A stretch of 20,016 bases of DNA from a virus: positions 1 to 20,016 of the IMG/VR virus record IMGVR_UViG_3300027861_000247; one strand, written 5' to 3'. Positions within the stretch are counted from its first letter, which is position 1. Every line of letters starts with the position of its first letter. Under the pieces are notes generated by a model. It searched no databases, had not been told where the DNA came from, and saw only the letters and a program-made list of their open reading frames with translations. The position numbers were made by a program, and so were the translations under genes. Positions 1 to 1,843 of this stretch are shown here, one piece after another.

Positions 1-24
1 AAAATTATCATAGTGTTATATTAT

Positions 25-53
25 CTTATAGTTAGATTCTAGTTAAGTGTCAA
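25..53 (-). promoter_or_regulatory. Possible leftward promoter at window edge
   Basis: Read on the minus strand, TTGACA (53-48) is followed after exactly 17 bases by TATAAG (30-25), one base from the general sigma-70 consensus; the TTG also sits in TTTG, the Bacteroidota -33 form. An ATG follows at 11-9. The expected Bacteroidota -7 TAnnTTTG is missing, and such matches arise by chance in AT-rich DNA, so this is tentative. Confidence 0.3.
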
Positions 54-103
54 ATTGTGGTAGAAAGTGGTGAATGTGACTTGGTAGCCACACTCACAAC
101 CGT

Positions 104-125
104 GTTTATGATGCAAACCATAAAC
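104..125 (-). other. 7-bp inverted repeat downstream of the terminator
   Basis: GTTTATG (104-110) and CATAAAC (119-125) are perfect complements around an 8-base loop. It lies just beyond the intrinsic terminator of the leftward gene. It has no U-tract, so it may be a back-up 3' end structure or a protein-binding inverted repeat. Confidence 0.45.
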
Positions 126-132
126 ATTAAAT

Positions 133-155
133 AAAAAGCACTCATTTCTGAGCGC
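133..155 (-). terminator. Intrinsic terminator of the leftward 89-aa gene
   Basis: Read on the minus strand this is GCGCTCA, a GAAA tetraloop, then TGAGTGC and TTTTT. All seven pairs form, one of them G-U. It begins eight bases past the stop of the leftward gene, the expected position for a rho-independent terminator. Confidence 0.88.
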
Positions 156-162
156 CTTAAGA

Positions 163-432
163 CTACATTACAAAACTGTCTAACACAGTAAGAGAGCTAG
201 CACAAGCAATTACCATAGGCTTACCTGTTTTCTCATCAGTACTATGAGCAATTGATAACTCACTTAAGTCTGCTTTCTGAGAATTGATACCCGAACCTAC
301 AGGCATAGTGAATTGCTCATTGTTTACAGTATAACCGATGAATGCACCGTTACCATTAGACAACTTAGATACTTTACCTGTTGCACCGATTGACGCTAGG
401 TATTCACGAACTGACATTACGAAATTTTCCAT
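163..432 (-). CDS. Small phage protein of unknown function (89 aa)
   Basis: A complete leftward ORF from ATG (432) to TAG (165-163). The only convincing minus-strand gene in the window, it has its own terminator immediately downstream, so it is very probably monocistronic. The start follows an A-rich leader (TTTAAAAAA before ATG) with no Shine-Dalgarno, as in Bacteroidota. The protein begins MENFVMSVREYLASIG and is rich in Gly, Ser and Ala, with a central GNGAFIGYTV segment; the pattern suggests a short helix followed by beta strands. There is no signal peptide or membrane segment and I recognise no family. A solo gene with a strong terminator opposite the structural operons suggests an abundant or early small protein, but that is inference. 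Confidence 0.75.
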   Translation of the reverse strand: MENFVMSVREYLASIGATGKVSKLSNGNGAFIGYTVNNEQFTMPVGSGINSQKADLSELSIAHSTDEKTGKPMVIACASSLTVLDSFVM

Positions 433-499
433 TTTTTTAAAGATTTAGTTAACGGGGTATTATTACTCCAAAGGATAGAGGGGGTCTTTGTTTGAAGTG

Positions 500-515
500 G
501 TTCACACGTTCACAA
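500..515. repeat. Tandem 8-bp repeat, operator-like
   Basis: GTTCACAC (500-507) is directly followed by GTTCACAA (508-515), seven of eight bases identical. It lies between the divergently read 89-aa gene and the rightward promoter-like element at 568, where a regulator could act on both. The rest of 433-567 shows only homopolymer-rich AT DNA. Confidence 0.4.
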
Positions 516-567
516 CTACTGGGTAAAAATTTTTTTGGGATTTTATTTTTTTATTGGTTATTTTTTA

Positions 568-575
568 TATCTTTG
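568..575 (+). promoter_or_regulatory. Bacteroidota-type -7 element (TATCTTTG)
   Basis: TATCTTTG is an exact match to TAnnTTTG. No TTTG stands at the usual 19-22 base distance upstream; the nearest are 11 bases (TTG at 554) or about 30 bases (TTTG at 534) away, so the -33 is weak. Transcription would start near 580, exactly where the folded region begins, which supports the assignment. Confidence 0.5.
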
Positions 576-579
576 CAGT

Positions 580-830
580 CCAATATTATCGTCCCCTGGT
601 AACCAAAAACGGGACTAGACATCGGATTGGTAGTTCTAAATAAGAACGAGATTTTCTCCGGTAATTGGAAAAAGAGTAAGATATAAACTCTGATTTGGAT
701 AGATTGCACACAGGTACGTGCGGTGAATTAACATCAAGATCACTATCCATGGGTCTCCGCTGATAACGGAAAGCACTGTCAGAGTGAAATTCACATACTT
801 GAAAACAGGTCTCCAAGGGGGAGAGCTATA
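580..830 (+). ncRNA. Candidate structured RNA or long structured leader
   Basis: About 250 bases with no convincing protein gene but many complementary segments. In order: CCAAT (580-584) with ATTGG (626-630), enclosing GTCCC (591-595) with GGGAC (611-615); GTTCT/AGAAC (633-647); AGAGT/ACTCT (673-691); GCAC/GTGC (706-721); TGGATAG (696-702) with CTATCCA (743-749); GTGAATT (723-729) with AATTCAC (788-794), which crosses the previous helix and would make a pseudoknot; TCCG/CGGA (756-770); CACT/AGTG (774-786); TCTCC/GGAGA (810-824). The base composition is more mixed than the AT-rich flanks. It follows a TAnnTTTG element and precedes a micro-ORF at 852, so it may be a free RNA or that gene's leader. 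No RNA family is recognised. The minus-strand reading frame here needs a TTG start and looks spurious. Confidence 0.55.
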
Positions 831-851
831 TTTAATTTAGAAATAAATAAT

Positions 852-935
852 ATGAAACAGCCAAAACCGGTTGCCAGACCTAGACCAACATCAAGACCTA
901 GACCAAAAAAAGGAGGGTGTGGATGTGGTAAATAA
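852..935 (+). CDS. 27-aa Arg-Pro-rich peptide ending GGCGCGK
   Basis: A complete short ORF, ATG 852 to TAA 933-935, between the structured region and the promoter of the next operon. The peptide is strongly basic and proline-rich: KPVARPRP and SRPRPKK, then a Cys/Gly tail GGCGCGK. The repeated RPRP units with two closely spaced cysteines look selected rather than random, and the start has the A/T-rich leader (AAATAAATAAT) seen before other genes here. It could bind nucleic acid or metal, or be a leader peptide. No family is recognised. Confidence 0.5.
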   Translation: MKQPKPVARPRPTSRPRPKKGGCGCGK

Positions 936-952
936 AATATTTCCTTAAAATA

Positions 953-985
953 TTTGTAAATATAAAAGATTTATTTATATATTTG
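953..985 (+). promoter_or_regulatory. Bacteroidota promoter of the groES-terL operon
   Basis: TTTG (953-956) and TATATTTG (978-985) are separated by 21 bases, matching the Bacteroidota housekeeping consensus TTTG/TAnnTTTG. Transcription would start near 990, giving a leader of about 18 bases to the GroES start at 1008. No other good promoter is seen before 6500, so it probably drives all genes to terL. Confidence 0.7.
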
Positions 986-1007
986 TCCCAACCAAAAATA
1001 TATAAAT

Positions 1008-1271
1008 ATGAATTTTAAGCCAAGCGGATCCTGGATAGTCCTTCCAGATCCTACAATCACTAAAACAGCATCAGGTATTATATTAGATGAAGAGACTGCA
1101 AAGTTACAAGCAACTAATATCCTTAAAGCCGTAGCTGTAGGTCCCCAATGTCATTTCGTTAAAGAAGGAGATACCATTATGGTAGATCCTAGATCAGAAG
1201 CTATCAAAGCTGAAATTGATGAAGAAGAGTATTTAATTATCTCAGAACATCAGATTTTAGGTAAATGGTAA
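1008..1271 (+). CDS. groES: GroES-like co-chaperonin
   Basis: Predicted co-chaperonin that caps GroEL and helps fold substrates in the cytoplasm. At 87 aa it is slightly shorter than bacterial GroES. The N-terminus WIVLPDP (residues 9-15) matches the first strand; TITKTASGIILDEETA (16-31) matches the mobile loop that contacts GroEL, usually of TKTxGGI(V/I)L type; AVAVGP (about 41-46) matches the VxAVGxG strand; GDTIMVD and the YLIISEHQILG ending fit the C-terminal strands. It is first in the operon that leads to the terminase, from a promoter 25 bases upstream. Phage-encoded co-chaperonins such as T4 gp31 help fold the capsid protein, so a capsid-folding role is a good inference, with host GroEL as partner. 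Confidence 0.9.
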   Translation: MNFKPSGSWIVLPDPTITKTASGIILDEETAKLQATNILKAVAVGPQCHFVKEGDTIMVDPRSEAIKAEIDEEEYLIISEHQILGKW

Positions 1272-1510
1272 AGGGAACTGTAAATATACAACTAAAAGAT
1301 TATCATACTTTTCTAGAAGCCACTCAAAGATCAACAGAAAAACAAGAGAATTTAATAAGAGCAGCTAAAGAGTTACAAGTATTCCTTGATTTTATATGTA
1401 ATCAAGTGGATATAGAAGAACATATAAATGCTTTTAATAGGCAATCTAAAACAGCGGAAATAAAATTTATTAACGGAAGAGCTAGAATAGAATTTAAAGA
1501 TGATGAATAA
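1265..1510 (+). CDS. Unknown 81-aa protein
   Basis: Starts inside the end of the GroES gene (7-base overlap), suggesting translational coupling. Residues about 12-50 are helical with heptad-like spacing (EKQENLIRAAKELQVFLDFI); the C-terminus (AEIKFINGRARIEFKDDE) looks like a two-strand beta hairpin. No signal peptide or membrane segment. No family is recognised; its reality rests on packing and coding-like composition. Confidence 0.65.
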   Translation: MVKGTVNIQLKDYHTFLEATQRSTEKQENLIRAAKELQVFLDFICNQVDIEEHINAFNRQSKTAEIKFINGRARIEFKDDE

Positions 1511-1634
1511 AATTAAATATATATTACATAAAATGGGGTTTCATAATGATAATTGTAGGAGACGTATATACACTACAGAACAGGATTATTTATGTACTAT
1601 TACAGGTAATTCACACAAAAAATTTACACTATAA
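1503..1634 (+). CDS. 43-aa basic micro-protein
   Basis: ATG at 1503 overlaps the preceding stop by 8 bases, and its TAA (1632-1634) shares a base with the ATG of the next gene (TAATG). Overlap at both ends is the pattern of translationally coupled phage genes and fills an otherwise empty 120-base gap. The protein is basic and aromatic (HNDNCRRRIYTTEQDYLCTI) with two cysteines. No function is recognised. Confidence 0.6.
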   Translation: MNKIKYILHKMGFHNDNCRRRIYTTEQDYLCTITGNSHKKFTL

Positions 1635-1843
1635 TGGAAGATGAAGATATAAATATATTATTAAAGGCAGGATTATGGTTTACTGTAACTCCAGTTCCTT
1701 CTAAGGGTGCGTGGAGATGGGTCTGTGGTATATATAAGAAGAATAAGGGAACAGGTGACTGGCAGACTGAGACTTGTAAAACTTGGGAAACTCCAGGGGA
1801 AGCATATGACTGGGCATTGACTAAATTAACAAAAAGAGTATAG
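1634..1843 (+). CDS. Unknown Trp-rich 69-aa protein
   Basis: A small acidic-to-neutral protein with six tryptophans and a regular arrangement: WFTVTPVPSKGAWRWVCGIY, then GDWQTETCKTW, then GEAYDWALTKL. This looks like a compact beta sheet followed by a C-terminal helix in which the aromatics form the core, a type often found in small phage accessory proteins. It is coupled to the upstream micro-gene by a TAATG overlap. No named family can be assigned. Confidence 0.7.
   Translation: MEDEDINILLKAGLWFTVTPVPSKGAWRWVCGIYKKNKGTGDWQTETCKTWETPGEAYDWALTKLTKRV

Follow-up and report, generated by a model that had tools for sequence, protein, structure and literature searches.

Covariation points to a conserved structured RNA, without a known relative, in front of the late genes of crAss-like phages

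What occupies the long gap at positions 568–851 of the window, by which we mean the whole 20,016-nucleotide stretch analysed (positions 1 to 20,016 of IMG/VR record IMGVR_UViG_3300027861_000247)? A sequence-only reading had seen no believable protein gene there and had proposed a new phage RNA preceded by a promoter element for it; this RNA could be a free RNA, a packaging-type RNA or a regulated leader of a 27-aa peptide gene at 852. Judged by its conservation and covariation among related loci, the region is a real, strongly conserved, structured non-coding RNA, with best limits of 568–837 on the plus strand.

Among the genes of the window are those for a GroES-like protein, a large terminase (crAss-type phrog_6681, E 2e-134), a portal (phrog_6547, E 2e-122) and a major head protein (phrog_11589, E 5e-85). 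Because the crAss-type terminase, portal and major head protein are all present, the window is, by these gene matches, a crAss-like phage (Crassvirales). Its terminase is closest to those of gut crAss phages, at about 42% identity among the best matches, and megablast and blastn searches of the window against INPHARED returned no match. Phages of this kind infect Bacteroidota and rank among the most widespread phages of these bacteria. The RNA region lies between a minus-strand gene on its left and the late block on its right (GroES-like, HU-like, terminase, portal and capsid genes); a family search with the 89-aa minus-strand neighbour gave no relatives. About 70 nt upstream of the RNA promoter, at 499–515, stands a 17-base element, GGTTCACACGTTCACAA, which recurs with at most two mismatches in 43 of the 111 loci compared, these being of the window's type (group A) or related to it. 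Each of the 43 has a single copy, mostly some 120 nt ahead of the RNA core, and the element might serve as an origin or as an early promoter for the divergent minus-strand genes.

Homologues were collected in two ways. A search for the GroES-like neighbour, which is independent of the RNA, gave 14 IMG/VR loci, and in all 14 the RNA precedes that gene, whole or truncated where the contig stops. Later loci came from pattern scans on the most conserved core, bringing the total to 118 IMG/VR contigs; because these were found by exact core matches, part of the invariance seen in helix P3 follows from the way of searching; the remaining helices are unaffected. The RNA is present once per record (16 of 16 records) and keeps a constant position upstream of the terminase block: of the 17 records examined, all but a 24-kb fragment yielded a crAss-type terminase (16 records), and where coordinates were compared the terminase follows the RNA at some 2.5–9 kb and shares its strand.

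We aligned 69 distinct copies with MAFFT, fitting the alignment to no structure. Across these homologues, 40 base pairs in eight helices are 99.6% paired, 20 of the 40 show compensatory changes, and doubly changed cells number 273, where shuffles have 70. Covariation reaches a score of 0.331, compared with 0.140 after shuffling (0 of 500) and at most 0.073 with the partners slid. Nine helices are supported, namely the eight of the covariation count and P8, and some of them had not been listed in the sequence-only reading (Table 1). They form a 5′ domain, in which P1 closes P2 and P3/P3b, and, after a short linker, a 3′ domain, in which P4 closes P5 (with P6 and P7) and then P8; a tail with an invariant GGGGG follows. 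P1 occurs as GCAAC/GUUGC, GUAAC/GUUAC, CCAAU/AUUGG and GUGAU/AUCAC among the copies, and one position of P3b shows as many as six pair types. We place the 5′ end at about 579–580, and beyond the last conserved motif, AAGGGGG, the tail is conserved until about 837.

Table 1. Positions in the window of the RNA, its helices and the neighbouring promoter elements.
Feature	Position	Strand	Evidence
TATCTTTG, Bacteroidota-type −7 promoter element (TAnnTTTG)	568..575	+	sequence and homologues
Structured RNA	579..837	+	conservation in 118 contigs and covariation
5′ domain closed by P1 (580–584 with 664–668)	580..668	+	all five P1 pairs compensatory; 100% of cells paired
Helix P2 (592–595 with 611–614), conserved GGUAACCA loop	592..614	+	two compensatory pairs; 100% paired
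Helix P3 (621–626 with 657–662), holds P3b	621..662	+	nearly invariant, partly from locus collection
Hairpin P3b (634–637 with 643–646), loop AAATA	inside P3	+	all four pairs compensatory
3′ domain closed by P4 (689–694 with 778–783)	689..783	+	4/6 pairs compensatory; 98.3% paired
Helix P5 (696–702 with 743–749), first helix of the sequence-only reading	696..749	+	99.8% paired; three compensatory pairs
Hairpin P6 (706–709 with 718–721), AGGUA in loop	706..721	+	98.9% paired; one compensatory pair
Hairpin P7 (722–725 with 732–735)	722..735	+	100% paired; overlaps refuted pseudoknot strand 723–729
Variable-length hairpin P8 (756–759 with 767–770)	756..770	+	outer pair C-G, U-A or U-G in 68/69 homologues
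AAGGGGG 3′ motif	815..821	+	GGGGG invariant in 69 homologues
TATATTTG, promoter element of next gene (GroES-like)	978..985	+	sequence; likewise in most group A relatives that lack an inserted gene

Two interleaving helices had been proposed to form a pseudoknot. One of them, 696–702 with 743–749, is our P5, and each of its positions is paired in 68–69 of the 69 homologues, with compensatory changes. The other, 723–729 with 788–794, is 66.3% paired compared with 66.2% in shuffled columns, and two of its seven pairs form in just 11 and 8 of the 69 sequences; because this pairing is at chance level and the helix overlaps the supported hairpin P7, we reject the pseudoknot. The inverted repeats described between 580 and 824 are no more than chance in one sequence, and the P5 repeat stands through comparison. 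A further candidate, an ACTTG/CAAGG helix near the 3′ end, is kept in part only and was left out. Folding energy is no better than that of shuffled sequence (z −1.13 for 568–851, z −0.67 for 579–795), and by this measure alone, which the sequence-only reading had offered as a test, the RNA would have been dismissed. Because the single-sequence energy is not exceptional, the case for the RNA rests on comparative covariation, and another check proposed there, for compensatory changes, is answered by the 20 pairs that show them.

The same energies, and a 76-codon open frame present in the window, could be taken to mean that the region is a minus-strand protein gene (586–816), or that the pattern is due to chance and there is no RNA at all. 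However, only 14 of 75 homologues keep a minus-strand frame open for 70 codons or more, and the covariation is far above both controls. Covariation and frame counts together already refute this explanation, whose probability we regard as negligible, and the frame counts agree with the original impression that the region holds no believable protein gene. Nor does the RNA look like the leader of the 27-aa peptide gene, as a similar peptide follows it in one relative only (L036). We also asked whether the GGGGG tail could act as a Shine-Dalgarno site for translation and found no conserved start codon or frame.

Divergent copies fall into group B (L058, L082, L116, L121), group C (L038, L123, L150, L166, L295), group D (L296) and group E (L320). 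The 5′ domain is common to groups A to E, and the 3′ half in groups B and C differs in sequence from that of group A. When groups B and C are added, the 5′ domain is 96.9% paired with a covariation score of 0.454, against 0.171 shuffled, in an alignment that leans towards the structure, being fitted to the model. In a terminase tree whose long branches leave the exact placement of the groups unsure, group A, group B and groups C and D together stand in separate places among crAss-like phages, and the 5′ domain is kept across these separate lineages. Searching by blastn with the group A and B RNAs gave no match, and the short, weak matches of a group C RNA in two huge phages (E 0.03–0.4) were judged to be chance. 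When about 85,000 bacterial and archaeal genomes were scanned for the pattern, those among the matches listed proved on inspection to be chance matches only. In group C, GGUAAAGCCACCC recalls RNase P, a resemblance that Rfam does not support.

The contigs of these divergent groups have other features of their own. In the L320 (5780–8962, minus strand), L082 and L296 records the terminase is one open frame of about 1060–1170 codons, in which the terminase match is split in two by about 350 residues, as an intein would do. Group B contig L082 has a match to the permuted tmRNA family on the minus strand (366–548; Rfam score 55.7 bits, gathering score 47), and group C contig L038 an array of 14 tRNA genes (6–1680, minus strand). 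Full-length GroEL genes are found in group C at L038:4181–5773 and L123:197–1777 (minus strand), 1.7–2.8 kb downstream of the RNA, where group A has its GroES-like gene.

As had been claimed from the sequence, the TAnnTTTG element ends just before P1. TAnnTTT[G/A] precedes the RNA in 105 of the 110 copies having enough upstream sequence; the exceptions belong to groups B and D. In groups C and E this promoter element is followed by the RNA, an intrinsic terminator and a new TAnnTTTG element, with no gene between, and from this arrangement the RNA in both groups is best described as a self-contained RNA gene. In group A the promoter element is clear, and after the RNA there is no clear conserved terminator. 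Behind the RNA, many group A phages have another TAnnTTTG element, which belongs to the GroES-like gene; in the window this element, TATATTTG, appears to mark where the RNA transcription unit ends. Part of group A has late genes directly behind the RNA with no promoter between, so read-through into them is possible. In L030, L061, L079, L108 and L140, variable late genes of this kind stand directly after the RNA and before the GroES-like gene; their products are an M15 peptidase, LamG-like proteins, many of which begin with MLGLG, and unknown proteins, and a 62-aa cysteine-rich protein is also among the genes directly behind the RNA in part of group A. Because the genes downstream differ between phages (GroES-like, LamG-like, M15 peptidase, thioredoxin-like and others), a gene-specific leader does not fit.

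At the curated gathering scores of Rfam 15 (4227 models) the window has no match. This result, the covariation and the upstream element in 105 of 110 copies uphold the suggestion of a new phage RNA with a promoter element of its own. More permissive Rfam scans of the window and of group B and C copies gave nothing convincing, and eight related loci matched tRNAs and one permuted tmRNA only, none at the RNA. We found no description of the RNA in the literature searched, namely freely accessible papers other than bioRxiv preprints. Nor did the RNA models R1 and R2 (5′ domain) find a credible copy in 16 named phages, the best scores being E 0.23 in Fpv1, 0.45 in a Bohxovirus and 0.83 in cr130_1. 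Thirteen of the 16 are crAss-like: 11 are annotated to Crassvirales (cr114_1, cr10_1, cr52_1, cr55_1, cr130_1, cr4_1, ProJPt-Bp1, phi14:2, crAss001, DAC15 and the Bohxovirus), and two, Fpv1 and Dulem virus 42, are counted for their crAss-type terminase. Cellulophaga phages belonging to other families make up the remaining three. Inspection by eye of the equivalent gaps in the gut phages cr10_1 and cr52_1 revealed no recognisable copy, and a diverged copy may lie below detection in the 16 phages. The terminase frames of cr130_1, cr4_1, cr114_1 and cr52_1 (L314, L315, L288 and L292) contain 9–12 in-frame stops under table 11, which is what the reassignment of stop codons known from such phages would lead one to expect.

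GOLLD, ROOL and OLE are large ornate RNAs, the first two often found in phages. Their structures have been described (PMC12286853). Like them, the RNA reported here would be a free, highly structured, non-coding RNA gene, but at about 250–390 nt it is much smaller, has another fold, belongs to another phage group and has no Rfam match.

Of the three options originally raised, a free RNA is the best supported, through the promoter–RNA–terminator–promoter unit of groups C and E. We consider it fairly probable that 568–837 is a free-standing RNA gene of crAss-like phages, made by the host polymerase, acting in trans and probably binding protein. Host RNA polymerase would start at the TAnnTTTG promoter, and the transcript would begin at P1, fold into its two multi-branched domains with their short linker and 3′ AAGGGGG tail, and stay untranslated. 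We infer from the sequences that it would be transcribed around the switch-on of the late gene block and would work in trans in its folded form, most probably by attaching to a protein of the phage or its host. The contacts would be its nearly invariant surfaces: P3 with the GUUUUCUCCGG strand, the GGUA loops of P2 and P6, and the GGGGG tail. We favour a free trans-acting RNA because it is a self-contained unit in two groups, is present in single copy, precedes unrelated genes and has these nearly invariant surfaces. Against this reading, group A has no clear terminator and may in part read through, 16 named phages have no recognisable copy, and the RNA is always at the head of the late block, as a cis-acting element would be.

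That constant place would also suit a cis-acting role, which we think unlikely. Such a late-block leader would modify its own RNA polymerase (antitermination resembling that of HK022 put) or would stabilise or regulate the late mRNA. It would account for the RNA always heading the late block on the terminase strand, for the terminator after it in groups C and E, and for those group A phages whose late genes have no promoter of their own. Like put and other processive antitermination RNAs, the RNA stands between a promoter and a long late block, with a terminator after it in groups C and E, where its position seems compatible with put-like antitermination. However, known put elements are much smaller, the present RNA is far larger and more conserved, the genes downstream differ, and the next gene has its own TAnnTTTG element in groups C and E and in most of group A. 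A decoy, either binding polymerase as 6S RNA does or occupying a host protein by mimicry as a counter-defence, would suit a free RNA with invariant surfaces and a patchy occurrence among relatives, which is often seen for accessory counter-defence functions; yet its fixed position and single copy over distant lineages are unusual for accessory genes, and Rfam gives no similarity to a known host RNA. The RNA resembles 6S RNA in being free and of roughly similar length, but 6S is one long hairpin with a central bubble, the present RNA has two multi-branched domains, and no 6S match was found in Rfam. We regard a decoy role as quite improbable. An RNA for packaging or virion assembly, working with the portal or terminase in a role like that of phi29 pRNA, seems more improbable still. 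Both are phage-encoded structured RNAs in a late or packaging-gene neighbourhood, and ours precedes terminase and portal by 2.5–9 kb, on their strand. The packaging motor is another one, however: we met no phi29-type packaging ATPase, and the large terminase is the ordinary crAss-type phrog_6681, which related phages possess without a recognisable copy of the RNA. No Rfam family, phi29 pRNA included, matches in sequence or structure, and the loops are not visibly complementary in a covarying way and give no sign of ring formation, so that the packaging option raised at the outset gained no positive evidence. Packaging, polymerase-binding and counter-defence roles are each no more than possible; the free-standing trans-acting RNA is the reading we prefer.

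The novelty here is an RNA family without a known relative rather than a proven new mechanism; no structured RNA of this kind is given for crAss-like phages in Rfam or in the literature searched. It is tempting to speculate, and we do so tentatively, that this is a new trans-acting phage RNA family, ancient in crAss-like phages and placed at the head of the late block, with a mechanism unlike that of pRNA, 6S or antitermination RNAs; it could, for example, be the RNA core of a phage ribonucleoprotein. Since its core is kept across distant terminase lineages, the RNA must do something important, and the contrast between this conservation and the 13 named crAss-like genomes without a recognisable copy makes its function testable.
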